The notes below the pieces were generated by a model. It made no database searches and was not told the origin of the DNA. It worked only from the letters and a program-made list of their open reading frames with translations. 42,808 nt of DNA from an uncultured Oscillospiraceae bacterium. GTDB taxonomy: Bacteria; Bacillota; Clostridia; Oscillospirales; Oscillospiraceae. The position numbers and the translations under genes are program-made. Of the stretch, positions 1,052 to 28,111 are shown one piece after another. Position 1 is the stretch's first letter. Each line of letters begins with the position of its first letter. Where the stretch lies: contig CANQSU010000002.1 of NCBI GenBank assembly GCA_947626585.1, positions 1-42,808 of the forward strand. Direction: 5' to 3'.

Positions 1052-3226
1052 TCAGTTTTCCATCTGTTTCCCAAGAAAAGCGGCCACGGTTTGGGCAAGC
1101 TTGTACTCCACCTCGCCCACGGTGTTGTCGCCCTCGGCAAAAAAGAGAACGCAGCCCATCACGTCGCCCTCGGTGAGGATGGGCGCAGCCACGGTGACGG
1201 TGTACTTGTCCACCCCGTCGGCGGGGTTGACGGCCTTTCCGCCCTGCTCGCGGTGGTAGACCTGGCGTCCCTCCATGATGGCCTCAAGCTCGCCGGAGAC
1301 CTGCTTGCCCGCCAGCTCCCGCTTTTGGACGCCGCAGACGGCGATGACGGAATCCCTGTCCGTGATGGCCGCCGCAAGGCCCGTGGTCTTGCTCAGAGTC
1401 TCCACCATCTGTCCGGCGAAATCCGCCAGGTCCCCCATGGGTGAGTACTTTTTGAATATGACTTCCCCGTCCTTCTCGGTGTAAATCTCCAGCGGGTCGC
1501 CGTCGCTGACAACATGGACATGGTAGATCTTGTCCCCGTGGTGAACGGAGGACTGAATGACGGCTGTTTGTGAGCTGTCCGCCATGTCCGACTCAAAAGT
1601 CGCGTTTTCCGCAAGCGTCCCGCATTTCAGGAGGCTGTCTATATCGGCCCGGAGTTCCACCTCGATGTGGTCCTCAAAGACCCGTATTTTCTTCACAATG
1701 AGCTGTATGTCGTTCCTGTCCAGCTTGTCCTTCCGGAGGATATCGTCAAAGACCTCCATGGCGGTTTTCGCCGCCCGATTGACCCGGATGATGGTGTTGC
1801 GCCTGTCGGCGGTAAGGCGAAGCTGGTTCTCGATCCCCTCCATGCGGCGAATAAGGTCCGCCTCCAGCTGGTCGTAGGTCTCCTCCAGCGTCTCCTCCCG
1901 CTCCGGGTGCTTCATGATATCCCGGATCCGCTGGCGCTTGGTGGCCCGGAGTTCCTCCCGCATGTCCTCAAGGACCTCCTCCAGATTGGCCTCCGCCCGC
2001 TCGGTCTCGGCCACGTCCTCCCGCTCGTTATTAAGCTCCTCGTTGAGCCGGTCCAGCATGGCGGAGGAGTTGTCCTTGACCTTTTGAACGTAGAGCTTCA
2101 AAAGCTCGTCCAGCTTGTCCACCCGGATATGGTGGCTTGTACACCCCTTCAGACCCCGGCGGTGGTAGAGTCCGCAACGGTAGGCGTCCCTGAGGTCGGC
2201 GCGGCTCATGGCGAACATGGGGCTTCCGCAGTCGCCGCACTCCAAAAAGCCGGAGTAGGCGTTATCGTATTTCTTCTGCCCCCGGTAGTTGGCGCGGGTC
2301 CGCTCGGCAAGCTGCGCCCGGGCGATGGCGAAGGTGCGATAGTCGATGATGGCCTGATGGTGGCGCTCGATGACGATGTGTTCCTCCGCGTCCCGCTTCA
2401 TATCCCTGCCGTTTATCTTCCGGCGGGTATATTTCCCCTGACGGAGGGTGCCGATGTAGAAGTCGTTTTTCAAAATGCCCTCGACGGTCATGATGGCCCA
2501 CTCCCGGCGGGTCTCCCGGGCGGAATCCAGGCCCTCGGCCTCCCGGCGCTGTTTTTCCGACATGCGCGGCGTGGGGACGCCCTCGTCGGTGAGGTAGTTG
2601 GCGATGCGCTTGTAGCCCCAGCCGGAGTTATAGAGTTCGAAGATCTTCCGCACGATCTGGGCCTCCGTGGGGACGACCTCAAACTCCCGCCGGTTATTCA
2701 CGATGTACCCATAGGGCGCGGCGCAGATCCACTTCCCGTCCTCCTGCCGGCGGCGAATGACGGACTTGACCTTCTTGCTGGCGTCGGTGACGGGCATCTC
2801 GTTTATGAGGAACTGGAACTGGATCTTCAGCCAGTCGTCGTCATTGGGGAAGTCGATGTTGTCCCCGATGGAGATTATCCGCACCCCGGCGTCCCGCAGG
2901 TCCTCCAGCTCCACCAGCCCCCGGCTGTTGCGCCGGGAGAAGCGGGAGAAGTCCTTCACCACCAGTATATCCAGCCGGTGTGCCGTCAGCTCCCGGCGCA
3001 TTTTCTGGTAGCCCTCCCGCTGTTCAAAGGTGTACCCGGACCGGTCCCGGTCCTCGTAGAATACAAGCCTGCTCCCCGGAAACCGCCGCTTTACAAAGTC
3101 CTCGATGATCGCCTTCTGGTTTTCAATGGACGTGTTGTCCCGGTCCAGCTCCTCGTCCACCGAGATACGGCAGTAGCCGGCGATGTCATATGTTTCTGTC
3201 AATTGAAACCACCACGCTCGTGACAT
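1052..3226 (-). CDS. Large serine recombinase fused in frame to the C-terminal 146 residues of SpoVT
   Basis: 724 aa: resolvase N-terminus (GYCRISVDEELDRDNTSIENQK), recombinase domain, Cys-rich zinc ribbon (CGDCGSPM...CGLYHRRGLKGC), coiled coil, then SpoVT-like LEIYTEKDGEVIFKKYSPMGDLADFA...GEVEYKLAQTVAAFLGKQMEN. A TTG at ~3202 is an alternative start. Confidence 0.93.
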   Translation of the reverse strand: MSRAWWFQLTETYDIAGYCRISVDEELDRDNTSIENQKAIIEDFVKRRFPGSRLVFYEDRDRSGYTFEQREGYQKMRRELTAHRLDILVVKDFSRFSRRNSRGLVELEDLRDAGVRIISIGDNIDFPNDDDWLKIQFQFLINEMPVTDASKKVKSVIRRRQEDGKWICAAPYGYIVNNRREFEVVPTEAQIVRKIFELYNSGWGYKRIANYLTDEGVPTPRMSEKQRREAEGLDSARETRREWAIMTVEGILKNDFYIGTLRQGKYTRRKINGRDMKRDAEEHIVIERHHQAIIDYRTFAIARAQLAERTRANYRGQKKYDNAYSGFLECGDCGSPMFAMSRADLRDAYRCGLYHRRGLKGCTSHHIRVDKLDELLKLYVQKVKDNSSAMLDRLNEELNNEREDVAETERAEANLEEVLEDMREELRATKRQRIRDIMKHPEREETLEETYDQLEADLIRRMEGIENQLRLTADRRNTIIRVNRAAKTAMEVFDDILRKDKLDRNDIQLIVKKIRVFEDHIEVELRADIDSLLKCGTLAENATFESDMADSSQTAVIQSSVHHGDKIYHVHVVSDGDPLEIYTEKDGEVIFKKYSPMGDLADFAGQMVETLSKTTGLAAAITDRDSVIAVCGVQKRELAGKQVSGELEAIMEGRQVYHREQGGKAVNPADGVDKYTVTVAAPILTEGDVMGCVLFFAEGDNTVGEVEYKLAQTVAAFLGKQMEN
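1493..1506. repeat. Attachment-site core, left junction
   Basis: CGGGTCGCCGTCGC, identical to 34595-34608; marks where recombinase coding passes into spoVT coding. Confidence 0.9.
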
Positions 3227-3238
3227 CTTATAGATAAT

Positions 3239-3267
3239 ATTGTATCACAGGTGGGGGAATAGTGCAA
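3239..3267 (-). promoter_or_regulatory. SigmaA-type promoter of the recombinase gene
   Basis: Minus strand TTGCAC-17 bp-TACAAT (-35 at 3262-3267, -10 at 3239-3244). Confidence 0.75.
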
Positions 3268-3330
3268 GAGAAATCTTATCCGCGCGCCGGCCCGCGCCTT
3301 GCCGCGACCAGCGGCAAGCTTCGGGACCAG

Positions 3331-4428
3331 TCAGCCGTATTTACGGACGACCTCCGGGAGTACCTTGCCAAGGCTGTATTGCTTCACGCTCTCTCTCGCG
3401 TTGCGGCCCAGCTCCCGCCGCGTGGAGGCGGAGCGCGTCAGGCGGCGGATGGCCCCGGCGCAGGCATCGGCGTCGCCGTAAGGGTAGAGCAGCCCCGTCA
3501 CGCCGTCCCTGATGAGGTCAACGTGGCCCTTCACGTCGGAGGCGACCACGGGCAGGCCGCGGTACATGGCCTCCATCACATTGAAGGGCAGGCCCTCGCT
3601 CCGGCTGGCGGTGACGGCGGCGTCCGCCGCGGCGTACCACGGCGCCATATCCGCGATCTGCCCGGGGAAGAGGACGCGGCGCTCAAGGCCCAGGTCCTTT
3701 GCAAGCGTCCCGCACTCCTCCAAAAGCGCGCCCTGGCCGGGGAGGAGGAGATAGCAGTCCTCCGGGAGCCTCGCCACGGCCTCGATGGCCGTCCGCTGGC
3801 TCTTGCGCCTGGAAAACTCAGCGGGGTAGACGAGGACAAAGGCCCCCTCCGGGATATTCAGCCTTCTCCGAAGCTCACGCCCATCCTCCGGGCCCGCGCC
3901 GTCAAGCTTTCCAAAGTCCACCCCCATACCGGGAATTTTAACCACGCGCTTTCCAAGCCCGTATTTTTTCGCCGTCCCGTAGTCCCACTCGTTCATGGTC
4001 ATCAGGACGTCGGTCTGCGGGGCCGTCAGGCGCTCGGCGGTGAGGAGGACGGCTTTTCGCGTTTTTGGCGTCTCATCATCAAAGAGATACCCGTGGCAGA
4101 TATACACCACTTTAGGCCTTGATTTCATCCCCTTCACCGCGAGGCGGGTGAAGAACGCCGCCAGGGAGGTGTGTGTGGAGATGAGGTCGTACTTTTCCGC
4201 TTTTATGAGCTTCCTGAGCCCGCTTGCCGCACCGAGGTTCCCGGGGGAGAACATGCTCTTCTCAAAGGGCAAGTCAATTATCCTGTCCGCGTAAGGTATT
4301 TCAGACGTCTCCCCGCCGCAGGCCACGTGGACCTCATAGCCCTGATCCCGGAACCACTTGAGATATGGAAGGTGGAAATTCCGGATATGGGAAAAGGACG
4401 AGGCGGTGAAGAGGACCTTTTGCGCCAT
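3331..4428 (-). CDS. Glycosyltransferase family 4 (EpsD/CapM-like)
   Basis: MAQKVLFTASSFSHIRNFHLPYLKWFRDQGYEVHVACGG...; GT4 C-terminal SRSEGLPFNVMEAMYRGLPVVASDVKGHVDLI. Confidence 0.88.
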   Translation of the reverse strand: MAQKVLFTASSFSHIRNFHLPYLKWFRDQGYEVHVACGGETSEIPYADRIIDLPFEKSMFSPGNLGAASGLRKLIKAEKYDLISTHTSLAAFFTRLAVKGMKSRPKVVYICHGYLFDDETPKTRKAVLLTAERLTAPQTDVLMTMNEWDYGTAKKYGLGKRVVKIPGMGVDFGKLDGAGPEDGRELRRRLNIPEGAFVLVYPAEFSRRKSQRTAIEAVARLPEDCYLLLPGQGALLEECGTLAKDLGLERRVLFPGQIADMAPWYAAADAAVTASRSEGLPFNVMEAMYRGLPVVASDVKGHVDLIRDGVTGLLYPYGDADACAGAIRRLTRSASTRRELGRNARESVKQYSLGKVLPEVVRKYG

Positions 4429-4430
4429 CC

Positions 4431-5837
4431 TTACCGCCTCACTTTCTCTTTTTCCGTGACCTCGGCGTTCAGGAACTTGCCCCCGAATACCGTCATCAGA
4501 AGGATCTGTATGTCAAACCAGACTGTCCAGTGTTCGATGTAGTATATGTCATGCTCGATCCTCGCCGGTATGGACGTGTCCCCCCGGTAGCCGTTCACCT
4601 GAGCCCAGCCGGTGATACCCGGCCGCACCTGGTGCTTGACCATGTAAAGGGGCACCTCGCGCTTGAACCGCTCCACAAAGTGGGGTATCTCCGGCCTCGG
4701 TCCCACGAGGCTCATGTCGCCCCGAAGCACGTTCCAGAATTGGGGAAGCTCGTCAAGGGAGCATTTGCGCATAAAGGAGCCAAAGGCTGTTCTTCTCCCG
4801 TCGCTGTCCCTGCTCCAGGCCGTGTCGGATTCGCCGTTTTGGCGCATGGAGCGGAATTTATACATGTAGAAGGTCTTTTTGCCCCGCCCAACGCGCTCCT
4901 GCCTGAATATGACCGGCCCGGGGGAGGTGAGCTTCACCCCAATGGCGCATATGAGCATCAGCGGCGAGGTCAGCACCAGCAGTATGGCCGACCCCACTAT
5001 GTCCATGGTTCGCTTTATGAAGGCGTTGGCCCAATTGTCCAGGGGTATGCGCCGGATATTAAGCACCGGAAGGCCGTTTAAGTCGTCAAACTGGGGATTG
5101 GAGGGCATGTACTCCGCGAAGAACGGGATGATGGAAAGCTTGACGCCCGTCTGCTCGCAGGCCGCGATCACATCCGGCATCCGGCCGTAGTCCTCCGCCT
5201 CCAGCGCCGCGATGACCTCGTCCGGCCCCGTCTCCTCTATGATCTCCTCCAGGTTCTCAAACCCGCCCAGCCATTTAAGATTGTTTTTCGACCTGTCGCG
5301 TATGCCGCAGACATACCCCACGGCACGGTACCCCAGCGCCTTGTCCCGGCGTATCTCGTTTAGGTATTTCGCCGCCAGGTGCCCGTTGCCCACGATGAGT
5401 ACATTCTTCAGGTTGTAGCCGGCTCTGCGGAACATGTGGAGGAATCTTCGCAGGATGAACCGCTTGAGGCTGAGGATACCCACATAAAGGGCAAACGCGA
5501 TGCCCAGGGCCAGCCTTGAGTAGTGTACTCCCCAGCTCAAAAACAGGAGGCTTTGCAGCAGAAGGAAGTCCAGCATGGAAGCCTCCCAGAGCCGCGCAAG
5601 CTCATGCCGCAGCCGCAGTCTCCTGAAGCTCTGGTACAGTCCGAAGGCCGCGTAGGTAAAGAGCTGTACCGCCGTGTAACCGAGCGCCAGCAGCATATAC
5701 TCTCTGAGCGTAACGCCCCGTTCACCGTTCAGGAGGATATACCTCACCCAATACGCCAGCGGGAAGGACAGGAACAAAATCAGCCCGTCGCTTATGACAT
5801 GGAGGCGGTTCAAGAGCTTCTGGTTCTCCTTTATCAT
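4431..5837 (-). CDS. Polyprenyl glycosylphosphotransferase (WcaJ/WbaP-like initiating sugar transferase)
   Basis: N-terminal TMs; KRTMDIVGSAILLVLTSPLMLICAIGVKLTSPGPVIFRQERVGRGKKTFYMYKFRSM...SLDELPQFWNVLRGDMSLVGPRPEIP motifs. Confidence 0.95.
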   Translation of the reverse strand: MIKENQKLLNRLHVISDGLILFLSFPLAYWVRYILLNGERGVTLREYMLLALGYTAVQLFTYAAFGLYQSFRRLRLRHELARLWEASMLDFLLLQSLLFLSWGVHYSRLALGIAFALYVGILSLKRFILRRFLHMFRRAGYNLKNVLIVGNGHLAAKYLNEIRRDKALGYRAVGYVCGIRDRSKNNLKWLGGFENLEEIIEETGPDEVIAALEAEDYGRMPDVIAACEQTGVKLSIIPFFAEYMPSNPQFDDLNGLPVLNIRRIPLDNWANAFIKRTMDIVGSAILLVLTSPLMLICAIGVKLTSPGPVIFRQERVGRGKKTFYMYKFRSMRQNGESDTAWSRDSDGRRTAFGSFMRKCSLDELPQFWNVLRGDMSLVGPRPEIPHFVERFKREVPLYMVKHQVRPGITGWAQVNGYRGDTSIPARIEHDIYYIEHWTVWFDIQILLMTVFGGKFLNAEVTEKEKVRR

Positions 5838-8227
5838 GTCTCCCCACGCACCTTGGCTATGAAATCAACGGCCTCCTGGCTCAGCTCTATGGACCCCATG
5901 TTCTTCCCGTTCCACGCGTCCAAAAGGTCCGCTATCCTCAAAACTCCCTCTCTCAGGGTGTCGCTGCCGTCGTAATACTGCCTGAGAAGGTCGAAGGTCT
6001 CCTGCCAGCCGGAGGCGTCGGAGGATATCTGCGTCACGTGCTTTTCCGCCTGCTCGACGGCCTTCTCCGGCCGCCCGGTCTGGAGGTAGTACATGGCCAG
6101 ATAGTACGACACCGTGAAGGTGTCCTTTTTCTCCAGCCGCGCGGCGTATTTGTCCGCCCTGCTCCTGACCGCCGGGTCCACGTCGGCGCCGCCGGTGCTG
6201 ACCACGTAGGAGAGGGCGTAGCTCGTCCACTCGTAGGGGTCAAGGGACGCCGCCTTCTGGAGGCTCCGGAGCGTCTGACCGTTCTCCAGGGCCTTGTAGG
6301 CCATTATGCTCCCGGTCATCTGCACGCCGAACACGGCGAGCATCGCCGCGGCTGTCCACGCCGCCACGGTCTGAGCCCGGGGCTTCAGCTTCGGCCTGGG
6401 TATGGCCTCCCCGCAGGTGACGCCGATGACCGCCATGACGCCGAAGGCTATGGGCAGGTAGTGGTACGCGGAGAACACCAGCTCCACCGCGGCGTGGCCG
6501 GCCATGAACACCACAGCCGCGCCCAGCGACGGGGCAAGCGGATCGCCGTCCTTCTTTTTGCGCCGCTCGAATATGACGGCCGCGGCGCAGACGGCCAAAA
6601 GCCCCACAAATACAATGAGTCCGATTATCCCCTTGTCCACCATCACCTCGATGTAGTGGTTATGGACGTTCTGGGTCACGTACCAGAAGGACTGGACGCT
6701 TCGGAACTGGTCTTCAAAGCCGCTGAGGCCAAGGCCGATTATGGGACTTCGCTTAAACAGCTTCATCCCGTCCTCGAAGAACACAAGCCGCTGTATGGCG
6801 TTCTCGTTGGCAAAAAGTCCCTGGAGACGGTTGGCGATGAAGCCCGGCAGGAGCTTGTATTCAAGCGGCAGACTGCCCGAACCGTTGGCCCCCGAATAGG
6901 TCGCCGAATCGAGCTTCGCCCCGTCAGGTGAGTAGAAGTTGAAATACACCACCAGGCTCCCCTCGGGCACGGTGAAGGCCGCGCCGTCGGCGGGGCCGCT
7001 GTACAACCCCGTGCTGGTGTGCATCATCGTCTCCTGCCTGTTCTGGCTCTCGATGGACACGTTGACGGTGCCGGAGGTCTGGGCATTAAGCGTATATTCT
7101 CCCGGGTCCGGGTAGGCGGCCCTGCGAAGGCTTTCTCCGGTGCCAAGCTCCGTACCGCCGGTCCACATTACGCCCGCAGTACCGTAGGCTATGAGTACCA
7201 GCATCACCGCCGCAACCGCTATGGGCACGAGCTTCGTTTTTTTATCGAGCTTCGCCGTGAGCTTCCGGCCGGCAAATTTATCTACGGCCCACAGCGCCGC
7301 CGAGCCCAAAATGACGCACAGAAGGGGCACCGGGCGTATTCCCGTCCACGCTGTAAGGGACGTCATGGACACGGCCATGGCGGAAATCATGGTGAGGATG
7401 AGGGTCTCCAGCATCAATATGAGGGTACCCACCCGGCTCTCCCGGCGCTCGAGGATGAGATAGGCCAAAAAGGCCAGAACGATCATGCCCGTGCCGCCCA
7501 TGCTGAAGGCCAGCACGAAGGCCAGAGCGTTTATGTACAACATCACCAGCTGGACGTTCCTTCGCCAGCCGGGCTTTTCGGTGGAGGCAAGGCCCAGGGA
7601 CAACAGCGCCCCCAGTCCAACCACCCCGGCGAAGACGTTGCCGTTTCCGAAGATGGAGGTCATGCGTACGCCGGCCTCCACGCCGCCAACATTCTCATAG
7701 CCCGGGGTCAGCAGGCTCAGGAACCACAAAACAGGCCCGCTTATAATGCGCGTGGAAATCTGGTCGATGCTCACAAGTCCCGCCACCGCGCCGTAGCAGG
7801 CCAGCGCCGTGGCCATCCACCGTCCCGGCTCCCGCCCCTTTCCCGGAGCCATAACAAGGAGCGTCATTACAAGGCAGAAGGCCGTCAGCACAACTAAAAG
7901 AGCGTACAGCGCCAGCATCCCGGAGGTCCTGTACGCGGCGTACATCGCCGACAGGCCGTCCAGCAGCACGTATACGCACAGCGCGCACACCGGAAGGGAC
8001 ATCCGCGTCCTCAGGGTCTTGCGCCGGGACCACATTGCCAAAAGGGCCACTATTATAAATGTCAGCGCCACGGTTTTCAGCCGGTCGTCGTAGAAGTCAT
8101 AGCATACGCACACCCCCACGAAAAAGAGCGCCCCTATAATATATACCCCGACTCCGCGTCCCAACAGCCCGGACAGCTTATCTCCCACCGTCAGCCGGTT
8201 CTTATCCTTGTATACCTTGTGTGACAT
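5834..8227 (-). CDS. O-antigen ligase family (Wzy_C) membrane protein with C-terminal TPR-like region
   Basis: 797 aa polytopic; ...ENAIQRLVFFEDGMKLFKRSPIIGLGLSGFEDQF...NVHNHYIEVMVDKGIIGLIVFVGLL typical of Wzy_C; soluble helical C-terminus. Confidence 0.9.
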   Translation of the reverse strand: MSHKVYKDKNRLTVGDKLSGLLGRGVGVYIIGALFFVGVCVCYDFYDDRLKTVALTFIIVALLAMWSRRKTLRTRMSLPVCALCVYVLLDGLSAMYAAYRTSGMLALYALLVVLTAFCLVMTLLVMAPGKGREPGRWMATALACYGAVAGLVSIDQISTRIISGPVLWFLSLLTPGYENVGGVEAGVRMTSIFGNGNVFAGVVGLGALLSLGLASTEKPGWRRNVQLVMLYINALAFVLAFSMGGTGMIVLAFLAYLILERRESRVGTLILMLETLILTMISAMAVSMTSLTAWTGIRPVPLLCVILGSAALWAVDKFAGRKLTAKLDKKTKLVPIAVAAVMLVLIAYGTAGVMWTGGTELGTGESLRRAAYPDPGEYTLNAQTSGTVNVSIESQNRQETMMHTSTGLYSGPADGAAFTVPEGSLVVYFNFYSPDGAKLDSATYSGANGSGSLPLEYKLLPGFIANRLQGLFANENAIQRLVFFEDGMKLFKRSPIIGLGLSGFEDQFRSVQSFWYVTQNVHNHYIEVMVDKGIIGLIVFVGLLAVCAAAVIFERRKKKDGDPLAPSLGAAVVFMAGHAAVELVFSAYHYLPIAFGVMAVIGVTCGEAIPRPKLKPRAQTVAAWTAAAMLAVFGVQMTGSIMAYKALENGQTLRSLQKAASLDPYEWTSYALSYVVSTGGADVDPAVRSRADKYAARLEKKDTFTVSYYLAMYYLQTGRPEKAVEQAEKHVTQISSDASGWQETFDLLRQYYDGSDTLREGVLRIADLLDAWNGKNMGSIELSQEAVDFIAKVRGET

Positions 8228-8459
8228 GTTCTTACCTCCCGAGTTCCTTCTCTTCAGCGGCTCCCCCGTAGCGAACCGAACGCAAAAAACGTCGCGGCCC
8301 CGCCGGAAGGCACAGCTTCAGACCTGGAAAGCGCATCACATCGTTTCCGTTGGGGATAAAAGCGGGCGACGCGTACACAGACGCCCTCCCGCCGCGCGAT
8401 CTTCAAGTGAAAAAACACTCTCCCCACCGCGAGCCCCGAAGACCCGCGGATATTGATAT

Positions 8460-8488
8460 ATATTATCATAAACAGGGGGAAAGTGCAA
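8460..8488 (-). promoter_or_regulatory. SigmaA-type promoter upstream of the O-antigen ligase/initiating transferase/GT operon
   Basis: Minus strand TTGCAC-17 bp-TAATAT (-35 at 8483-8488, -10 at 8460-8465); closely resembles the recombinase promoter. Confidence 0.75.
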
Positions 8489-8491
8489 GAG

Positions 8492-8529
8492 AAAAGACAG
8501 TCTCGGTAATTTTACCGGGACTGTCTTTT
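8492..8529. terminator. Intrinsic terminator at the 3' end of the long minus-strand glycan operon
   Basis: 18-nt near-perfect inverted repeat AAAAGACAGTCTCGGTAA-tt-TTACCGGGACTGTCTTTT with flanking A/T tracts. Confidence 0.85.
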
Positions 8530-8560
8530 ATGCGGTTTTTTGGAGAATTTTTTGGCGGCG

Positions 8561-9040
8561 TCAAAACGCGCGGATCACCCCGAACGTCACCGCCGTCATG
8601 ATCCCGGCGGCAATGAGGACGCCAAGGAGGATCGTGGGTACCGCCTTTTTCAGCCTCATGTCCAGCATCGCCGCCACTAAGGCTCCGGTCCACGCTCCCG
8701 TTCCGGGAAGCGGTATAGCGACAAGAAGGCACAGGCCGATGGCGCTGTATTTTTGCACCACGCGGCCCTTGACATGAGCCTTTTGCTCTAACGTCGTAAT
8801 GAGACCGTCCAGCTTTGCAAAATGCTTTCTCAGCCACGCGAATACCCGGCGAATATACACTATAATAAACGGCACCGGCACCATGTTCCCCACCACAGCC
8901 GCCGTCAAAGCAAGCGGATACGGTAGGTCCAATGCGATCCCATACGGCAAACCGCCGCGAAGCTCGATGACGGGGACCATGGAGATCAAAAAGGTCGCGA
9001 TGACCCTGCCAAGGGTCGTCTCTGTCAGGAATACCAGCAT
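8561..9040 (-). CDS. Small membrane protein, COG2426-like (annotated as small multidrug export protein)
   Basis: TLGRVIATFLISMVPVIELRGGLPYGIAL...GNMVPVPFIIVYIRRVFAW...LFVAIPLPGTGAWTG-type motifs. Confidence 0.85.
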   Translation of the reverse strand: MLVFLTETTLGRVIATFLISMVPVIELRGGLPYGIALDLPYPLALTAAVVGNMVPVPFIIVYIRRVFAWLRKHFAKLDGLITTLEQKAHVKGRVVQKYSAIGLCLLVAIPLPGTGAWTGALVAAMLDMRLKKAVPTILLGVLIAAGIMTAVTFGVIRAF

Positions 9041-9043
9041 CCG

Positions 9044-9370
9044 TCACCTCGTCAGCAGCACCACTCCAAGGCAGATAAGCGCGATCCCCGCAATCTTCTT
9101 CCCAGTTATCCTCTCGCCCAGAAAGCGGTTGGAGATGATCAGGGACCAGATATACGCGATAGCGGACATGGGATACAGCACCGTATAGTCCATGTAACGG
9201 AGCAGGATCACGTTCATCAGGGCTCCGGCGACATACAGGACGCCGCCCACATAGAAGCTGGGGATTTTGAGAAGGGAGAAGACGCCTTTCATGTTCCCGG
9301 TACTTTTTTTGAAGAAAAAAGCGCCCAGAGAGCCCAGAAGCGTCATAAGCAGGACAAAAATGTAGATCAT
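9044..9370 (-). CDS. EamA/SMR-like 4-TM transporter subunit
   Basis: 108 aa, 4 TMs; ...DYTVLYPMSAIAYIWSLIISNRFLGERITGKKIAGIALICLGVVLL. Confidence 0.8.
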   Translation of the reverse strand: MIYIFVLLMTLLGSLGAFFFKKSTGNMKGVFSLLKIPSFYVGGVLYVAGALMNVILLRYMDYTVLYPMSAIAYIWSLIISNRFLGERITGKKIAGIALICLGVVLLTR

Positions 9371-9720
9371 TTCTCCGCCCCCGTTTCCGAGGAACTCAGG
9401 AAAATGAGTCCCACGATGATCACCGCCACGCCGGCTATTTTCATAAAGGTGATCTTCTCATCCAGCACCACAGCCCCCAAAAAAAGCGACAGCACATACC
9501 CCACGCTCATCATGGGATGGAGTACGGACAGCTCCCCGTAGCGCAACGCCAATATCATAAGCAGCGCCCCGAGCCCATAGAGTCCCAGGCCGACGATCAC
9601 CAGCAGGATGGAATCATCTCTGGACGCCAGCTTCCACAGCAACTGTCCCGTGCAGGCCAGCGTTGCGGAGAGCAGAATCAACGCAATGCCCTTATAGAGG
9701 GTCTTATTTTTCTTCTTCAC
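9367..9720 (-). CDS. EamA/SMR-like 4-TM transporter subunit (partner of adjacent gene)
   Basis: 117 aa, 4 TMs; ...GELSVLHPMMSVGYVLSLFLGAVVLDEKITFMKIAGVAVIIVGLIFL; overlaps neighbours by a few nt. Confidence 0.8.
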   Translation of the reverse strand: MKKKNKTLYKGIALILLSATLACTGQLLWKLASRDDSILLVIVGLGLYGLGALLMILALRYGELSVLHPMMSVGYVLSLFLGAVVLDEKITFMKIAGVAVIIVGLIFLSSSETGAEK

Positions 9721-10979
9721 GTTTTCTTCTCCTCGTAGAGAATTTCCTCCACCACCCGGCAGAGCGGCTTTTCTTCATCTATCAGCACGGTATGACAGCC
9801 CGCGGCTTGGCCGGCCTTTATGTCGGACTGGGAATCGCCGAGCATCCAGCTCGCCGTCAGGTCAATGTTATACTTCTCCGCCGCCTGAAGCAGAAGGCCG
9901 GGCTTGGGTTTACGGCAATCACAGTCAAATTTATATTCCGGTCTCTCGCCGGGAAAGCCCCTGTCCGGGTGGTGTGGGCAGATAAAGATGTCGTCAAGAT
10001 ACGCGCCCTCCTGCCCCAATAGCGTCTCCATCTTGCGGTGGATCTCCCGGAGTTCCTCCCAGGTGACCTCACCCCGGGCGATGACCGGCTGGTTGGTCAC
10101 CACGATCGCCAGATACCCGCTGCGGTTGATGCGCCGGATGGCCTCCGCCGCGCCGTCCAGAAGCTCAAAGTCGTCTATATCCCTCAGAAATCCCACGTAT
10201 TTGTTGACGGTGCCGTCACGGTCGAGAAAAACCGCTTTCTGTTTTTGACTCAAGTTCCTGCTCCGGACAAAGCCCGTCTCAATGTCCCGCTCCACCTCCC
10301 GGATCCGCTCCGGCGTACCCATGTCCTTCACGTACTCGGGGGAGCGGTAGGCGTAGATCTTGCCGTCTGGTATCGAGGGCTTCAGCAGATCCCGGTCCAG
10401 ATCCGTCTTTTTCGGCTCCGTAAGTTTATCCAGCATCCGCGGCGACATGACGTGGACACCGGCGTTGACGCAGTTGGAGTACCACCCGCGCTCGTCCTCC
10501 TTGGTCAGCCAGCCCCGCACGCGGTTATTTTCATCCGCGATGATGATCCCGCTGTCGTAGGGATGGTCGTTGGGATGGACGAGAAGCGTCACATCGGCGT
10601 GGTGGGACTTGTGGAAATCCATCAGGCGGTGGAAATCCACGTCAAAGATCATATCCCCATTTAGCAGGAGAAAATCGTCCTTAACTCTATCTTTCAGATA
10701 GTATAATGCCCCGGCGGTTCCAAGCGGAACCTCCTCGCGGATGTACTCAATATTCACGCTAAACCGGCTGCCGTCGCCGAAATGGTCCACGATCTGGTCA
10801 GCCAAGTAGCCCACGGTGAGAATGATGTCCGTGATGCCCTGGCGTTTCAAGCACTCGATCTCATGCTCCAGCACCGGCTTTCCCGCCACAGGGAGCAGAG
10901 GCTTTGGGATGGCGCTGTTGAGGGAGGCGATTCGCGTCCCCTTCCCTCCGGCCATGATCACCGCCACCATATCACTCAC
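9717..10979 (-). CDS. Bifunctional D-glycero-D-manno-heptose-1-phosphate nucleotidyltransferase (HddC-like) plus HAD-IIIA heptose-bisphosphate phosphatase (GmhB-like)
   Basis: VIMAGGKGTRIASLNSAIPKPLLPVAGKPVLEHEI (NTP transferase) followed by KAVFLDRDGTVNKYVGFL...DCDCRKPKPGLLLQAAEKYNIDLTASWMLGDSQSDI (HAD-IIIA). Confidence 0.9.
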   Translation of the reverse strand: MSDMVAVIMAGGKGTRIASLNSAIPKPLLPVAGKPVLEHEIECLKRQGITDIILTVGYLADQIVDHFGDGSRFSVNIEYIREEVPLGTAGALYYLKDRVKDDFLLLNGDMIFDVDFHRLMDFHKSHHADVTLLVHPNDHPYDSGIIIADENNRVRGWLTKEDERGWYSNCVNAGVHVMSPRMLDKLTEPKKTDLDRDLLKPSIPDGKIYAYRSPEYVKDMGTPERIREVERDIETGFVRSRNLSQKQKAVFLDRDGTVNKYVGFLRDIDDFELLDGAAEAIRRINRSGYLAIVVTNQPVIARGEVTWEELREIHRKMETLLGQEGAYLDDIFICPHHPDRGFPGERPEYKFDCDCRKPKPGLLLQAAEKYNIDLTASWMLGDSQSDIKAGQAAGCHTVLIDEEKPLCRVVEEILYEEKKT

Positions 10980-11610
10980 CCCAGAATTGGCACTCCAGCG
11001 CCGCGCAGATGATGTGGTAGACGGTGGAATGTATGTCCTGAATATCCTCGGTGATATTGGAGGCGGCGATGATGGTCAGGTCAAACTGCTCCTTCATCTT
11101 CCCGCCGTCCCTGCCCGTGAGGCCGATGGTGCTGATGCCCATAGCCTTTGCCGTCTCTCCGGCGTAGAGGATATTTTTCGAGTTACCTGACGTGCTGATG
11201 CCCAGAAGTACGTCGCCCTTTCTCCCGTAGCCCACCACCTGCTGGGCGAATATGTATTCTCCGCCAACATCGTTAATCATGGCCGTTATCAGGGACGTAT
11301 GGGCTCCCAAATTGATGGCCGGCAGGCCGCCCTGGAGCTTCTCGTTAAGCTCACCGTTCGTCAGCGCGCTTTTCACTTCGTCGGTCAGGGGCCGGTGGAG
11401 CCGGAAGGACTTCACAAGCTTCCCCACGATGTGGTCCGCGTCGGCGTTACTGCCGCCGTTTCCGCATATCAGGAGTTTCCCGCCCGTGCGGAAGGAGTCC
11501 TCAAGCATCTCCACAGCTTGGCGGATCGCGGGCTCCAGGGGCGCCACAAAAGCGTGCTGGGCCCTGTACTTGTCAAACAGCGCATCCGTACTCTTTTTCA
11601 TGCCTCCCAC
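10972..11610 (-). CDS. gmhA: D-sedoheptulose-7-phosphate isomerase (SIS domain), copy A
   Basis: GGKLLICGNGGSNADADHIVGKLVKSF...DVLLGISTSGNSKNILYAGETAKAMGI. Confidence 0.9.
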   Translation of the reverse strand: MGGMKKSTDALFDKYRAQHAFVAPLEPAIRQAVEMLEDSFRTGGKLLICGNGGSNADADHIVGKLVKSFRLHRPLTDEVKSALTNGELNEKLQGGLPAINLGAHTSLITAMINDVGGEYIFAQQVVGYGRKGDVLLGISTSGNSKNILYAGETAKAMGISTIGLTGRDGGKMKEQFDLTIIAASNITEDIQDIHSTVYHIICAALECQFWGE

Positions 11611-12608
11611 ACCTTTCTCTTGTCCGGGTCGTAGATCTCCGGAGCGTAATAAAGTATCCTTGTGCCGCCGTTGTCAAAGCCGAAGGGTATCTCCATAAGG
11701 CCCAAAGCCTGTCGCACGGCCTCCTGCCTCTCCTTCGGGACGTAGAACAGTAAAAATCCTCCACCTCCGGCGCCAAGAAGCTTCCCACCCAGGGCCCCCG
11801 CGGCGATGGCTTTGGCGTAGTGGCCGTCGATGATGGGGTTGGATACCTTGCCGTTTATCTCCCGCTTCAGGTTCCACTCGTAGTCCAAAAGCGCTCCGAA
11901 GTCGTCAACGCGCTTCTCCACCAGCGCCTTCTCCGCCTCGTCCACCAGGTCCTTCATACGAAGCAGCTGCTTGTTCTTCTTCTCAATGTTCTTCTCCTGC
12001 TCCACCTGGATGTCCGAGGAGAACCGGGAGATACCGGTAAAGAACAGCATCAGGTTGTCGCAGAGGGCGTCCTTCGTCTCGTTGCCGATGATGACCGGCA
12101 GGACCTCGTACCCATCAGGGCCAAAGACAATTTTGTTAAGGCCCCCGAAGGACGCGGCGATCTGGTCCTGTACCCCGCCGCTCTCCTTGCAGAGTACACG
12201 CTCTAAGTAGATGGCCTCGTCGGCCAGGCGGCGCTTGTCCGCGTACTTGCCCTTCAGCGAGTGGAAAGCCGAGAGCAGGCCCACGGCGAAGGAACTGCTT
12301 GTCCCAAGGCCGGTCCGGGCGGGGAGATCCGCGTCATAAAGTATGTTAAGCTCGTGCATATCCAGAAACTTCATAGCCTCCCGGACAGCGGGATGCTGGA
12401 TAGCCTCTATACTGGTCGTGCGCTCTGTCTTGGAATAGGAGACGTAGTTGGAGTAGTCGAAGAAGGGCGGCAGGTGGCGCACCGTCACATAGCAGTACTT
12501 GTCGATGCTGGTGGACAGCACCTGTCCGCCGTATTTCTCATAGAATCCCGGAAAATCCGTGCCGCCTCCGAAAAAGGAGATCCGGAAGGGCGTCTGTGTT
12601 ATGACCAT
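11598..12608 (-). CDS. hddA: D-glycero-D-manno-heptose-7-phosphate kinase (GHMP family), copy A
   Basis: MVITQTPFRISFFGGGTDFPGFYEKYGGQVLSTSIDKY...DLPARTGLGTSSSFAVGLLSAFHSLKG...GGKLLGAGGGGFLLFYV. Confidence 0.92.
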   Translation of the reverse strand: MVITQTPFRISFFGGGTDFPGFYEKYGGQVLSTSIDKYCYVTVRHLPPFFDYSNYVSYSKTERTTSIEAIQHPAVREAMKFLDMHELNILYDADLPARTGLGTSSSFAVGLLSAFHSLKGKYADKRRLADEAIYLERVLCKESGGVQDQIAASFGGLNKIVFGPDGYEVLPVIIGNETKDALCDNLMLFFTGISRFSSDIQVEQEKNIEKKNKQLLRMKDLVDEAEKALVEKRVDDFGALLDYEWNLKREINGKVSNPIIDGHYAKAIAAGALGGKLLGAGGGGFLLFYVPKERQEAVRQALGLMEIPFGFDNGGTRILYYAPEIYDPDKRKVWEA

Positions 12609-12627
12609 ATCTTTATCCTCAATAATT

Positions 12628-13644
12628 TTATCTTGTTAAAAATTGCTCTCCCCGGCCAATACGAGTCCTCCAATACTCCAGGAGGTCCCGCATGGTTTGC
12701 TCGTAGGGGATGACCGGCTCCCAGCCGGAGTGCTTCTTGAATTTTGTACAGTCGGGCACCTGCAGGTCCGCGTCAATTGGCCGCAGGCGCTCAGGGTCCA
12801 CCTCCACACGGATAATGTCCTTTTTCGGTGAGAAGGAGATCAGCGTGTTCAGCGTGTCCCCCACGGTGCAGGTGTAGCTGCCGCCGATGTTGTAATACTC
12901 GCCGGGAATGGGATTTACCGTCACAAGCATATAATAGGCCCGTACCGCGTCCCGCACGTCGGCGTAGGTCCTCAGGGACTTGAGGTTGCCCACCTTCACT
13001 ACCGGCTCGATGAGCCCCGCCTCGATCATGGCGATCTGCTTGGCGAAGGTACTCTCGTGGAACACGTCGCCACGCCGGGGGCCGGTGTGGGTGAACATAC
13101 GGGTGGTCATGACCTTCATGCCATAGGCTTCGGCGTAGTACCGGCCCAGAAGGTCGGTGCCCACCTTGGAGATGGCGTAGGGCGAGGCCGGATGGAAAGG
13201 GCACTCCTCGTGGATCCCCGTGGCCGGCTTTTTCTCCGGCGGTATCTTGCCGAACACCTCCGAGGAAGCGCAGACGTGGATCACCGGGTCAATACCCGCC
13301 ACCCGCACCGCCTCCAATAGCCGGCAGGTGCCCAAAATATTAGTGTTCAGCGTATCCAGAGGAGAATCGAAGCTTGTCTGGGGATAGCTCTGGGCAGCCA
13401 GGTGGAATATGTAGTCCGGCTTCACCTTCTCCATCAGGTGAATGAGCGACACCGCGTCGTTCAAATCCGCGTATTCAAAGAACACCCTGTCCTTGTTGTT
13501 CGCCCTCTCAATGAGATGGGAAACGTTGTCCAGCGGACTTCTCCACCGGCACGCCCCATACACGTCCCAATCTGTATTCTCCAACAGAAAATCCGCAAGG
13601 TGTGACCCCACCATCCCGGTGACGCCGGTTATAAGTGCGCGCAT
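12628..13644 (-). CDS. GDP-mannose/GDP-heptose 4,6-dehydratase-like SDR, copy A
   Basis: MRALITGVTGMVGSHLADFLLENTDWDVYG...; SDR YxxxK (SPYAISKVGTDLLGRYYAEAYGM); strong RBS (GGAGGTACTAATATG) supports start at 13644 rather than 13686. Confidence 0.88.
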   Translation of the reverse strand: MRALITGVTGMVGSHLADFLLENTDWDVYGACRWRSPLDNVSHLIERANNKDRVFFEYADLNDAVSLIHLMEKVKPDYIFHLAAQSYPQTSFDSPLDTLNTNILGTCRLLEAVRVAGIDPVIHVCASSEVFGKIPPEKKPATGIHEECPFHPASPYAISKVGTDLLGRYYAEAYGMKVMTTRMFTHTGPRRGDVFHESTFAKQIAMIEAGLIEPVVKVGNLKSLRTYADVRDAVRAYYMLVTVNPIPGEYYNIGGSYTCTVGDTLNTLISFSPKKDIIRVEVDPERLRPIDADLQVPDCTKFKKHSGWEPVIPYEQTMRDLLEYWRTRIGRGEQFLTR

Positions 13645-13661
13645 ATTAGTACCTCCAAAAA

Positions 13662-14828
13662 TCAAACTCTGTTCAAAAGCTTGCAAAGCTCGAGTATTTT
13701 TTCCTTCTCAAGGCTCGGATAGTTTCCCGTGTATAGCCCGTAGAAGTGTATAAAGTCCGTGTTTTTCAGCGTTGACGGGTCAAAGTCCGGCAGGCGCTTG
13801 CGCACGAAGGGTTGGCGGGCCAGATTTCCTCCTCCGGCGGTGCCCCGGCGGAATTCCACGTTTTCAGAGCGGAGCAGCTCCGTCAGACGCTCAAACTTTT
13901 CCCGGCTTGCCTGACGCAGGAGGACGATGAACGCGTAGTTGACCTGACCGTCCATGCGGAAGTCCGTGAAATACTTCTCCGGATCCAGGTTTTTGACATA
14001 AAGCTTAAAATTCTCCACCCGTCGGGCATTGTTCCCATCCAGCCGTTTAAGCTGGTTGAGTCCCAGGACCGCGTTCAGCTCGGTGCCGCGCATATTGTAT
14101 CCCGGGACCGCAAACAGGAACTCCGGCCGCAGGTCGGGGTACTTTTCCGCGTACTCCCGCTTCATGTCCTCGTCAGTCAGCTCTCGTACCATACCGTGAC
14201 TTCGGAACATCCGGCACATCTGGTAGACCCTGTCGTTGTTGGTACAGATGACGCCGCCCTCGATGGTACTCATATGGTGGGCATAGTAGAACGAGAAATT
14301 GGAGGCCAGGCCAAAGGTCCCGCACTTTTTTCCGTTCATCGTGGTGCCGTGGGATTCACAGACGTCCTCGATGAGGGGAATCCCACGCCTGTCAAGCTCG
14401 TCCAGCAGACGCTGGCTCAGGCCGTTGAGCCCCAGCACATGGGTCAGAAGCACCGCCCTGGTCCTGTCCGTGATGTGGGAAAGTATTTCGTCCTCGTTCA
14501 TTGCCAGGGTACTCATGTCCACATCCACAAATACCGGGGTAAATCCGGCGGCGAAGACCGAGGAGATGTCGCTGCTCCAGGCGATGGGCGGAACAATGAC
14601 CTCTCCCGGCCCGTACAGCTCCCGCAGTACCGCCATGGTCATGTAGTTTGCCGACGCCCCCGAGTTGACGAACAGGCTGTGCTTCACTCCCAGCCACTGG
14701 CTCCAGGCCTCCTCGAACTCCCGCACCTTCGGCCCGTTAGTGAAGCGGTCCGAGGTCCGGATAAAGTCGGCAAGGACTTCCTTGTCCTCCTCAGATATAT
14801 TGTTGCTCATAAGAGGTATGTTCAGCAT
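13662..14828 (-). CDS. DegT/DnrJ/EryC1-fold enzyme with His in place of the PLP Lys; ColD-like nucleotide-sugar 3-dehydratase
   Basis: FSFYYAHHMSTIEGG aligns H with the catalytic K of aminotransferases, as in ColD/RfbH; no Cys cluster like that of RfbH/E1. Confidence 0.85.
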   Translation of the reverse strand: MLNIPLMSNNISEEDKEVLADFIRTSDRFTNGPKVREFEEAWSQWLGVKHSLFVNSGASANYMTMAVLRELYGPGEVIVPPIAWSSDISSVFAAGFTPVFVDVDMSTLAMNEDEILSHITDRTRAVLLTHVLGLNGLSQRLLDELDRRGIPLIEDVCESHGTTMNGKKCGTFGLASNFSFYYAHHMSTIEGGVICTNNDRVYQMCRMFRSHGMVRELTDEDMKREYAEKYPDLRPEFLFAVPGYNMRGTELNAVLGLNQLKRLDGNNARRVENFKLYVKNLDPEKYFTDFRMDGQVNYAFIVLLRQASREKFERLTELLRSENVEFRRGTAGGGNLARQPFVRKRLPDFDPSTLKNTDFIHFYGLYTGNYPSLEKEKILELCKLLNRV

Positions 14829-14856
14829 ATTAATTCTCCTTATTTGTCAGCTAATG

Positions 14857-15618
14857 TTACTCGAGATCATCTATATTCATGTCATGGCGAAGCATTTTTC
14901 GCTTGCTCGCAAATCTCCATTTAAACGCAGGCCTAAGATATAACAAATTTGCCCACAACGGTTGAACGGATGTGTCGTCCAATTTAACATGACACGTTCC
15001 GGGTATCTCGTGTATCTTCACTCCAAGTCTTAAGGGAATTACTACCTCCTCCACGGCAATTGGGTGTCGATTTTCCTGGAAATTGATAGCCTGATATAGA
15101 ACAGTCGGAGCAAGATGCGTTCCCCATGTAAAATCAGTAACCTTTGTAAAATACAGCACACGGAGAAATAGTTGTGAAAAATAGTTCCATACCTTTTTCA
15201 CTGCCGGATAATTTTCAAAAGAGCTTCCTTTCATCCAGCGAGAGCTGGAAATGATATCGTTAGGATATTTTTTTGCAAGTTCAATCATTTTTGCTAAATT
15301 CTCCGGCGCTGTATTTAAATCCGCTGTTTCTACTACAACATGTGATCCAGTCGCTATTTGAAACCCGTCCATCAGTGCGCCGCCAAGGTACGGGCGAGTC
15401 TGAAACAGCACATTATAGGAGATGTCACGCGTTTCTGCCAATTGCCTTCCTTTTTCAATGAACGAAAAGGATTCTTCTGTCGTTGCTTTGCAAACAACCA
15501 CAATTATTTCCTTTATATCAGGCGCTTCACAGGTGTTAAGGATTGTTGTTAACGTCTGGAGAAAATCTTCTGTCTCTCTCAGAGTAGGTATAATTACAGA
15601 AACATTTTCAAATGTCAT
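14857..15618 (-). CDS. Glycosyltransferase family 2
   Basis: VSVIIPTLRETEDFLQTLTTILN...SHVVVETADLNTAPENLAKMIELAKKYPNDIISSSRW. Confidence 0.85.
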   Translation of the reverse strand: MTFENVSVIIPTLRETEDFLQTLTTILNTCEAPDIKEIIVVVCKATTEESFSFIEKGRQLAETRDISYNVLFQTRPYLGGALMDGFQIATGSHVVVETADLNTAPENLAKMIELAKKYPNDIISSSRWMKGSSFENYPAVKKVWNYFSQLFLRVLYFTKVTDFTWGTHLAPTVLYQAINFQENRHPIAVEEVVIPLRLGVKIHEIPGTCHVKLDDTSVQPLWANLLYLRPAFKWRFASKRKMLRHDMNIDDLE

Positions 15619-15639
15619 ATTATTACCTCGTAAACATCA

Positions 15640-16860
15640 TTACAGCCGCTCTGCCAATTCATCAACAAAATCCATTGCCAGCTCCACAACGACATCAGAA
15701 TTATGGTGCTGATGCTCTCCCCATCTCCCTAAGCCATAGATTCCTTTCTCTTTTGCATAGGCTAAAACGGAGTGCATAATCTCTGGCTTGTCTATAGTAT
15801 TCACCGGATAGGCATACTCATTGGCGAACTTATAATTATATGGAGCATCTTTTGGGATAAGCAATGCGCGCTCTTGATTTATCTCAATAATCATCCCGTG
15901 CATCGTTGGCCATACATTTTTTCTGATTGTTGCCCGATGATATGGTAATTGCATATTTGGAAAGTATACCCACTGTGCCTTTGTGTCCAAATCATCGTTC
16001 ACGTACCGATTTTCAATTGCTACATATTTCAGGGTACTCAGTTTCTCCTTCAATTCATTGGGTAATCCCACTATTTCATCAAATGTTCGCCACGGTATCG
16101 TGGTAATGATGATGTCCCCATGGTACGCTTCTCCAGACTTCGTCCGCACAATTTTTTTATCCATGTCAATGTAATTAACAGCCTGATTACAAACAACATG
16201 GTCTCCCAATTGTTCAGCCATTCTGCGCCAAAGCTCTCCAAATCCAGTTTTCTTTGGATAATAAAATTGGGCCACACAAGGTTGAGTCCCGTACGCGCGC
16301 TTTTGAAGGCAGCTCAACAACGTTTCGCGGAAGGATACGCTGGGTAACTTGTACAGCCAATATGTCCCCATCGAATCCAGATTTTCACCGTATAATTTTG
16401 AGTTATATGGAATCATGTAGTCATCAGCAATTTTCTTGCCCAGCTTCCAGTAGATCCAGTCCTTAAAGCCTTCAGGCATACCAATTCCGGTGTTACAACC
16501 GGCAGCAGAAATGGACTCCAAATACGCGACCTGACTATCCATATCCATCTGCCACAAATTTGCCTCAAACGGGCTGTTAATCAGTTGATCGTTTACAAAT
16601 ATTTTACTGTCGCGCTCATAAAGCTTCCACTCGCTCTGTGGCATAAAGCCAAACAAATACGACATGACACGTTCAGATCTATGATCCAAATAATGCGGGC
16701 CGCCAATGTCTATCGGTTCGCCTTCAAATTCTATGGAGCGGCAAAGTCCTCCAGGTTCTGCCTCCTTTTCAAGAATTAAGAATGAGTCGATGCCTCTTTC
16801 TTTCAGTCTATTGCCTAATGTCAGACCCGCGGGTCCAGCTCCAAGTATAATGATTTTCAT
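15640..16860 (-). CDS. FAD-dependent oxidoreductase (protoporphyrinogen oxidase/UDP-galactopyranose mutase-like)
   Basis: MKIIILGAGPAGLTLGNRLKERGIDSFLILEKEAEPGGLCRSIEFEGEPIDIGGPHYLDHRS; GxGxxG and PGG motifs. Confidence 0.82.
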   Translation of the reverse strand: MKIIILGAGPAGLTLGNRLKERGIDSFLILEKEAEPGGLCRSIEFEGEPIDIGGPHYLDHRSERVMSYLFGFMPQSEWKLYERDSKIFVNDQLINSPFEANLWQMDMDSQVAYLESISAAGCNTGIGMPEGFKDWIYWKLGKKIADDYMIPYNSKLYGENLDSMGTYWLYKLPSVSFRETLLSCLQKRAYGTQPCVAQFYYPKKTGFGELWRRMAEQLGDHVVCNQAVNYIDMDKKIVRTKSGEAYHGDIIITTIPWRTFDEIVGLPNELKEKLSTLKYVAIENRYVNDDLDTKAQWVYFPNMQLPYHRATIRKNVWPTMHGMIIEINQERALLIPKDAPYNYKFANEYAYPVNTIDKPEIMHSVLAYAKEKGIYGLGRWGEHQHHNSDVVVELAMDFVDELAERL

Positions 16861-16892
16861 AAAATCCCTTTCATTTTTTCATTTATAGTTTT

Positions 16893-17831
16893 TTATCCTA
16901 CTTGTTTTTGAAAATGCTCGTACGTAATACGAACCGCAGTTTCCAGATCATATTCAGGTTTCCATCCCAACGCCCTAAGGCGAGATGAATTTGTGACTCT
17001 GCGCATTATCCCGTCGGGCTTTGAAAGATCGTAAACAATCTGTCCTTTATAATCGACAACGTTTTTTATAATGTCCGCTAATTCGCGAATTGACGTACCT
17101 CCTGAGCCCGATCCAATATTATAAAGCCCCTCCACCGATTCCTGTTCCATCAGCAAAACACACGCAGACGCAACATCATCGCTAAAAAGGAATTCTTTCA
17201 CCGGCTTACCAGTACCCCACAGAGTAAATTCTGCGGCGTTCGTCGTCTTGGCATCATGCATACGATGAATCATGGATGCTACAACGTTAGCCCTCTCAAG
17301 GTCAAAGGAAGAATCTGTTCCAAAAAAGGCACAGGGAACAACCGTGAAAAACTGATTGCCATACTCTTCTCTATAGTAATCGCAAAGCTTTACACCTGTT
17401 ATTTTGGCTAAACTGTAAGGAAAATCACGTTTGCTCGGCAATCCCGATAAAAAGTCGTCTTCTGTCATCGCCCTGTCCTGTATTTCGGGATAGATAAAAT
17501 CACTGCTCATAAAAAGAAGTTTCTCGACGTCAAACCTATGTGCGCATCTGATCACATTTGTCTGCATAAGAAGATTCTCAAGGAGCAATTCTGCCGGATG
17601 GGAATTTCGGTATGTGATGCTTCCCATTTTTGCCGCAGTATATAAAACATATTTCGGCTTATACTCCTTGAAAAAAGATTCCACTTCATCTTGAGAACTA
17701 AGGTCCAACTCTTTGTGCGTTGGCGATAAGACGTTTGAATAACCTTTCGATAGAAGCCGTCTCCGTATCGCGCTTCCGGCAACGCCATGTCCGCCGGCGA
17801 TAAATATGGCGTCGTTATGTCCCATTATCAT
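16893..17831 (-). CDS. NAD-dependent epimerase/reductase, GDP-fucose synthase/ColC-like SDR
   Basis: IFIAGGHGVAGSAIRRRLLSKGY...LDLSSQDEVESFFKEYKPKYVLYTAAKMGSI...FPYSLAKITGVKLCDYYREEYG. Confidence 0.85.
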   Translation of the reverse strand: MIMGHNDAIFIAGGHGVAGSAIRRRLLSKGYSNVLSPTHKELDLSSQDEVESFFKEYKPKYVLYTAAKMGSITYRNSHPAELLLENLLMQTNVIRCAHRFDVEKLLFMSSDFIYPEIQDRAMTEDDFLSGLPSKRDFPYSLAKITGVKLCDYYREEYGNQFFTVVPCAFFGTDSSFDLERANVVASMIHRMHDAKTTNAAEFTLWGTGKPVKEFLFSDDVASACVLLMEQESVEGLYNIGSGSGGTSIRELADIIKNVVDYKGQIVYDLSKPDGIMRRVTNSSRLRALGWKPEYDLETAVRITYEHFQKQVG

Positions 17832-18026
17832 ATCATCGTCTCCTTTTCTTTCATCTCATATAATTATTCCTGTTAATTCTTTTTCTCGATAAAAATATCA
17901 ATTTTTCATCAAGAAATGCTATGCTGCGGACAGCCCATTTCCGCGTGAAAGCGCTGAAATGACGTCTCATACAAAATCTGATACACATGCGGTGTTATAA
18001 AAAGGCTTTGCACTTTTTATCAGGTT

Positions 18027-21196: not shown

Positions 21197-21208
21197 AACC
21201 GTCTCCTA

Positions 21209-28108: not shown

Positions 28109-28111
28109 CCC

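Follow-up and report, generated by a model that had tools for sequence, protein, structure and literature searches.

The window, by which we mean the whole analysed stretch of 42,808 nucleotides from an uncultured Oscillospiraceae bacterium, contained an open reading frame in which a large serine recombinase runs into the C-terminal part of SpoVT (Table 1). Pfam domains in this chimera were Resolvase (residues 15-166), Recombinase (186-309), Zn_ribbon_recom (324-377), and SpoVT_C (599-723, E 3e-38); the first three, together with a coiled coil, are those of a large serine recombinase. The TTG at 3202 is the likely start, giving a protein of ~716 aa, and homologues begin with LTET/LIETYDIAGY. 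The nearest solved recombinase by sequence was the SPbeta integrase SprA/YokA (PDB 9dxh, E 4e-19). On the host side, the solved SpoVT (PDB 2w1t) aligned to residues 573-723, the NCBI spoVT model was matched from its position 26 through its end, and the corresponding DNA aligned to the intact spoVT of two other loci (L071 and L072). As this part comes without the N-terminal half of the AbrB domain, the fusion consists of the GAF-like domain and the rest of the AbrB hairpin. The sequence-only reading had a GAF-like domain being joined on integration; that domain is present, and the remainder of the hairpin is included too. Because the AF2 model of the full chimera had low overall confidence (67.9), we claim no arrangement of its domains; in this otherwise weak model, SpoVT_C stood out as an independently folded domain predicted with confidence (pLDDT 83-90) and attached by a flexible tether. 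The N-terminal half of spoVT was found in a second ORF, 33 kb from the chimera and on the same strand.

Table 1. Features of the spoVT locus and its element in the window.
Feature	Position	Strand	Basis or detail
Recombinase-SpoVT_C chimera ORF	1052..3226	-	724 codons from first ATG
SpoVT C-terminal part (rest of AbrB hairpin and GAF-like domain), host sequence	1052..1493	-	PF15714, PDB 2w1t
attL core GCGACGGCGACCCG	1493..1506	-	14 bp, inside recombinase ORF
Whole integrated element	1493..34608	-	33,102 bp core to core
Large serine recombinase part (Resolvase, Recombinase, Zn ribbon, coiled coil, variable linker)	1508..3202	-	Pfam, alignments, AF2 model
sigmaA-like recombinase promoter TTGCAC-N17-TACAAT	3239..3267	-	TGTGATACAATATTATCT conserved upstream in many relatives
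Cargo: surface-polysaccharide cluster	3331..33931	-	Pfam
Small conserved protein, candidate recombination directionality factor	34139..34327	-	63 codons, TTG start inferred
3' remnant of MobA/VirD2-like relaxase gene, ending in MGHKPDDHEDEQNWTMTM and stop	34375..34440	-	C-terminus shared with full relaxases
SpoVT N-half (33 codons) and native recombinase tail (25 codons)	34517..34693	-	58-residue ORF, MKATGIVRRIDDLGRVVIPKEIRRTLRIRDGDP joined to SLTALTWWERFCLAILTFVERTGGT, then stop
attP right arm and native recombinase tail SLTALTWWERFCLAILTFVERTGGT, then stop	34517..34594	-	conserved peptide
attR core GCGACGGCGACCCG	34595..34608	-	14 bp, at broken end of spoVT
spoVT forespore sigmaF/sigmaG-type promoter-like motif GAATA-N16-GGATACTA	34732..34760	-	motif counts

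The gene spoVT was split at codon 33 by the 33.1-kb element. In two genomes of the same genus, G020 and G118, spoVT was unbroken and aligned to window positions 34595-34781 and 1052-1504 with a 12-nt overlap, and the left flank of the window (1-977) was also present in G118. Since the unbroken gene aligns to both window flanks joined at the core, integration into spoVT is a matter of direct comparison, beyond inference. The same split at the same spoVT codon occurred in about 100 other genomes; together with the empty sites this excludes a chance match of 14 bp, and such recurrence among related genomes means that the arrangement is no accident. The source of the window is a 286-contig metagenome bin, and we therefore considered that the junctions might be an assembly artefact or a chance repeat. 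Against this, the same junctions were found in single-contig genomes (G078 and G129), in cultured isolates and in the roughly one hundred further genomes; these junctions and the empty sites refute the artefact reading, to which we give practically no chance. The span 1052-3226, to which the sequence-only reading was confined, does contain the attL side, but only that side; the element extends to 34.6 kb.

Alignment of both junctions in about 20 genomes defined a family-wide core, GGYGACCC. The attP arms were imperfect inverted repeats, TGTCAATGTTATCAGTGAC-GGYGACCC-GTCACAGACAACATTGACA, typical of serine integrases, and attP was longer than attB; inverted-repeat arms around a short identical core are the features of serine-recombinase attachment sites. 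The GA at the centre of the core is the probable crossover dinucleotide, judging from the symmetry. The core was read as Gly-Asp-Pro in both the recombinase and spoVT, that is, in the same frame. Because the crossover point lies inside the recombinase gene, the tail of the enzyme is exchanged for the host SpoVT half at each insertion. The linker between coiled coil and core had 25 different lengths (44-92 residues) and contained a stop in none. An attP within the recombinase ORF and an in-frame chimera built by integration, both proposed from the letters of this window, thus agree with the 14-bp core inside the ORF and with the open frame kept through the core across relatives.

Several other repeats were observed near these sites. 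Close behind the tail stop there was often TACATA and then, 4-40 nt downstream, ATCCGCGAGG, a copy resembling the left half of attB; this was seen in the window (34490-34516 on the minus strand) and at the corresponding position of roughly half of the relatives inspected. The copy may be a relic of a previous integration event or serve as a binding site. A near-perfect palindrome resembling attP of the family, GTTATCAGTAACGGTGAACCGTTAC, was found at G185:C67:34935-34959 (L229). Outside the element, the window had a perfectly abutting 24-nt inverted repeat (96%) at 37321-37368, to which the sequence near 42250-42275 was partly similar.

On the other side of the element, the peptide after the core was conserved in 23 genomes as DP-SQTTLxxWExFCxxMLDLAKRxGW followed by a stop, with about 24-32 residues. 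Its distal part, beyond the usual attP arm, showed a pN/pS of 0.43 with saturated synonymous sites, and the DNA past the stop was near random (27-32% identity). Tail distances followed recombinase distances (Mantel r 0.54, p 0.0005) and did not follow SpoVT_C (Mantel r 0.14, p 0.12). Conservation close to the core could be partly explained by the needs of attP. Most simply read, these data make the tail the C-terminus that the recombinase itself has in the circle and loses upon integration. The sequence-only reading had predicted two C-termini depending on integration state, and this is supported, as comparison shows selection on the alternative tail as coding sequence; the tail it had given for the circular form matched the last 25 residues of the 34517..34693 ORF exactly.

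The SpoVT_C part behaved differently from the tail. It covaried poorly with the recombinase (Mantel r 0.27), nearest neighbours by the two parts agreed in 19 of 92 cases, and recombinases 94% identical bore SpoVT_C just 37% identical. By these comparisons, SpoVT_C is the host's own sequence and not that of the element. Within the genus of the window, purifying selection acted on SpoVT_C whether the gene was split or intact (omega 0.07-0.28 among split pairs vs 0.19 for the sole intact pair). Over all splits omega was higher than in intact genes (0.42 vs 0.29), in a comparison where intact loci were taken best-first and the intact set was small and biased to close relatives. The split locus L167 was nearly identical in SpoVT_C to the intact gene of G118, indicating a recent gain or loss of the element.

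The recombinase was present in 38 of 251 genomes of the same family, spanning 25 genera, and the frame continued into SpoVT_C in 33 of these carriers. A scan of species genomes gave 80 loci in Oscillospiraceae and Butyricicoccus relatives, cultured isolates included (cultured carriers are, for example, Butyricicoccus pullicaecorum DSM 23266 and Flintibacter muris DSM 110149); 4 of the loci were cut by contig ends and 75 of the 76 evaluable loci had the fusion, a count not independent of the first because the two sets overlap. Among the exceptions, the recombinase of G014 was broken and located elsewhere. In G029 (L067/L148) it adjoined the 3' end of lepA and closed with seven foreign residues, while spoVT was intact elsewhere, which is a case of secondary-site use. 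In G217:C2 (17409-58486; L030, L099-L101) the element was reversed inside spoVT, so that the recombinase, adjoining the N-half, reads antisense into it, and the small gene described below was degraded with one internal stop. G144 and G151 were more distant relatives (47-50%): in G151 the element used the same spoVT site but the recombinase stopped before spoVT and was unfused, and in G144 neither spoVT half was fused to the recombinase. In G031:C23 (L065-L066), the C-half at 24089 and the N-half at 5412 were both on the minus strand, about 18.6 kb apart; this order is wrong for simple excision and points to a rearrangement or misassembly.

The element had its own integrase and defined att sites, and relatives had the empty site. 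A full relaxase gene (PF03432) was found in relatives directly upstream of the small gene, and a relaxase was detected in at least 17 of the 80 loci, whose flanks were limited. What carriers of the same genus shared with the window element was limited to the recombinase region plus a short segment by the spoVT-N end. Given the relaxase in relatives and the differing cargo, the family is, by gene content, an integrative mobilizable element (IME) with exchangeable cargo. As the relaxase in the window is a remnant, the window copy may be a derivative and may not be mobilizable. Its cargo, 30 kb of polysaccharide genes separating the small gene from the recombinase, encoded glycosyltransferases, a sugar transferase, a Wzy-like protein, heptose-type SIS/GHMP/nucleotidyltransferase/HAD proteins, epimerases, and an ABC exporter. 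The heptose-type module, with paired SIS and GHMP kinase genes, was present in two copies (12658-13608 and 26242-27207), 72-73% identical in DNA around GDP-mannose-dehydratase-like genes. In 15 of the 80 loci (L122-L201, e.g. L133:8717-10004) a gene that we take to be RhuM-like overlapped the recombinase start; this gene, and AAA-type ATPase genes carried by other elements, were recurrent cargo. We also considered a prophage and rejected it, as no phage structural genes were among the Pfam matches of the main element ORFs and scans of viral contigs were empty. In phage collections, relatives over most of the recombinase were limited to two unverified faecal fragments of 4-9 kb, one of which was itself a chimera.

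A small conserved protein accompanied the recombinase. It was encoded upstream of the recombinase in 54 of 56 evaluable elements, mostly less than 2 kb away, and it occurred in 32 of 38 carriers vs 0 of 213 non-carriers among the 251 family genomes. It was not found in phage and plasmid collections except for one element fragment, it matched no family in Pfam, NCBIfam, or PHROGs, and no PDB entry matched by sequence or fold. Its size is near those of the recombination directionality factors (RDFs) of C. difficile skin (53 aa) and yin (72 aa) (PMC10747680). We regard it as a candidate directionality factor, by association only. The sequence-only reading had called for a search for a separate RDF and had named one as an observation that would speak against its proposal; the small protein, if confirmed, would be that observation. 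In the window, about 190 bp separated the small gene from the SpoVT_N-tail ORF upstream of it, and the small gene was on the strand of the spoVT promoter. Its ribosome-binding site was covered by a strong stem-loop (CGCTCCCATCGG...CCGGTGGGAGCG) with T's after it, directly before the gene at 34328-34370 (minus strand); the same structure was seen in L125 and L167 of the same genus, and could act as a terminator or as a switch of translation. Family-wide, no sporulation sigma motif above chance was detected upstream of the small gene.

The sequence-only reading had suggested that the added domain affects the directionality of excision or ties it to a sporulation signal. In its strongest form, the GAF-like domain of SpoVT_C would actively change the resident recombinase, for example by tetramerising or by ligand binding, which we think unlikely; that the integrated form would be excision-prone or sporulation-responsive while the Rec-tail form integrates is to our judgement equally unlikely. 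The fusion is open in nearly all members, across 25 genera and despite variable linkers, and SpoVT_C is predicted to fold independently on its tether, as such a switch would want; moreover, an engineered RDF-integrase fusion favours the excision reaction, reversing directionality (PMC5737554). On the other hand, SpoVT_C varies with the host and hardly with the recombinase, a separate candidate RDF exists, and the same-site relative in G151 is unfused; these three points weaken the idea that SpoVT_C acts in directionality or senses sporulation. Also, the recombinase promoter looks sigmaA-type and a sporulation promoter was not found before the partner gene. It is doubtful that the two isoforms created by recombination itself, Rec-tail in the circle and Rec-SpoVT_C in the chromosome, form a natural integration-state switch. 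We are just as doubtful that in such a switch Rec-tail would be the integrating form, with Rec-SpoVT_C excising or held off by the host sporulation domain, and that the swap would help to set directionality and tie it to sporulation. Passive acquisition of SpoVT_C, with selection acting via the restored spoVT, seems to fit the data better than an evolved interaction between recombinase and SpoVT_C.

Whether the host needs spoVT bears on excision. In C. difficile, spoVT is sigmaF/sigmaG-dependent and its mutant gives no heat-resistant spores (PMC3789822). SpoIVA was encoded in 30 of 30 genomes tested, and no second full spoVT accompanied the split spoVT. From the C. difficile requirement and the lack of a second copy, the splitting should matter unless excision occurs. 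The forespore-type motif upstream of spoVT was present in 16 of 25 split and 12 of 29 intact genes, compared with about 0.1-0.2 in shuffles. As in skin-like elements, a sporulation gene is interrupted and precise excision would restore spoVT in frame. A domesticated element of the skin type, whose developmentally timed excision rebuilds spoVT in the forespore and which may re-integrate after germination, would be in line with the spore-forming hosts, the interrupted sporulation regulator with its promoter kept in split genomes, the unrelaxed selection on SpoVT_C within the genus of the window, and the position of the candidate RDF downstream of the spoVT promoter. However, known intervening elements sit in mother-cell genes (PMC4191935, PMC10747680), whereas spoVT has a forespore-type promoter motif, and a forespore target would place excision in the germline. 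The element is also patchy between close species (L167 vs G118), unlike a fixed developmental device, the partner gene has no sporulation sigma motif, and the stem-loop before it may stop read-through. We consider this explanation possible, though rather doubtful.

The opposite outcome would be suicidal integration, in which the added SpoVT_C inactivates the recombinase, leaving a dead end like that of archaeal SSV-type elements, and the loss of spoVT is tolerated. An attP within the integrase gene is a hallmark of suicidal integrases (PMC8371274), and a joined attP, as in an excised circle, was found in none of 401 family genomes or viral contigs with up to 3 mismatches allowed, in a search whose pattern was narrow and in assemblies that favour the major form. 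But in integrated copies the catalytic, recombinase, zinc, and coiled-coil regions were intact and under selection (omega 0.16-0.28), SpoVT_C was not decaying in the genus of the window, and the elements are mobile between hosts, all of which makes a dead end quite improbable.

The explanation we favour, and hold with moderate confidence, is a spoVT-specific IME in which Rec-tail integrates, SpoVT_C is mostly passive, and the small partner drives excision, restoring spoVT. The element belongs to a spoVT-specific integrative mobilizable family in spore-forming gut Clostridia, with a large serine recombinase gene that straddles its own attP. In the circle, the native tail, conserved and about 25 residues long, would close the recombinase, and it is this Rec-tail form that would perform integration. 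Crossover at GGYGACCC, in spoVT codons 31-33, swaps the 3' ends, leaving, as the junction sequences show, a recombinase minus its tail plus host SpoVT_C, and the SpoVT N-half plus the tail. SpoVT_C would be a tethered host domain acquired mostly passively, and the resident enzyme, having lost its native tail, probably integrates less readily thereafter. For excision, the same catalytic core would act with the small conserved protein as its directionality factor; both genes would be restored, and a sporulating host presumably needs spoVT, as C. difficile does.

Several known systems resemble parts of this arrangement. IME_Spy2096_SNF2 of streptococci is likewise a serine-integrase IME that interrupts a coding gene and has its recombination site within the integrase gene (PMC5357655); unlike the spoVT element, it targets snf2 of other mobile elements, and it is not reported to have a conserved alternative tail, family-wide conservation, or a reciprocal in-frame fusion. 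Archaeal SSV-type suicidal integrases also have attP inside the integrase gene and are altered by integration (PMC8371274), but these are tyrosine recombinases whose gene is fragmented, while the serine recombinase described here keeps all known domains and swaps the tail alone. In mycobacteriophage BPs, attP lies inside an ORF with two C-terminal forms by integration state, and integration changes the C-terminus and activity of the repressor (PMC4557955); that repressor is shortened, whereas the recombinase gains about 150 host residues. The elements skin/sigK, SPbeta/spsM, vfbin/spoVFB, vrin/spoVR, gin/gerE, and yin/yabG similarly split a sporulation gene by a serine-recombinase element in a way that excision can restore (PMC4191935, PMC5595907, PMC10747680); a forespore-type target, an IME with variable cargo, and a recombinase fused to the host gene set the spoVT element apart. 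SprA/YokA of SPbeta is a remote homolog, and in PDB 9dxd a single chain combines YokA with YotN, with no host domain. In the open-licence literature searched, spoVT was not found among interrupted sporulation genes, nor was a conserved reciprocal tail swap with a host sporulation gene together with a strict partner gene.

This family is a natural and widespread example of an enzyme whose C-terminus is rewritten by the recombination it performs. For some serine integrases, directionality factors are predicted to bind the C-terminal region (PMC10747680); since this is the region that is exchanged, the two isoforms, the unfused relatives and the candidate partner offer a ready-made comparison of directionality. 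With their defined att sites and a possible directionality factor, the recombinases might also be of use in gut Clostridia that are difficult to engineer.
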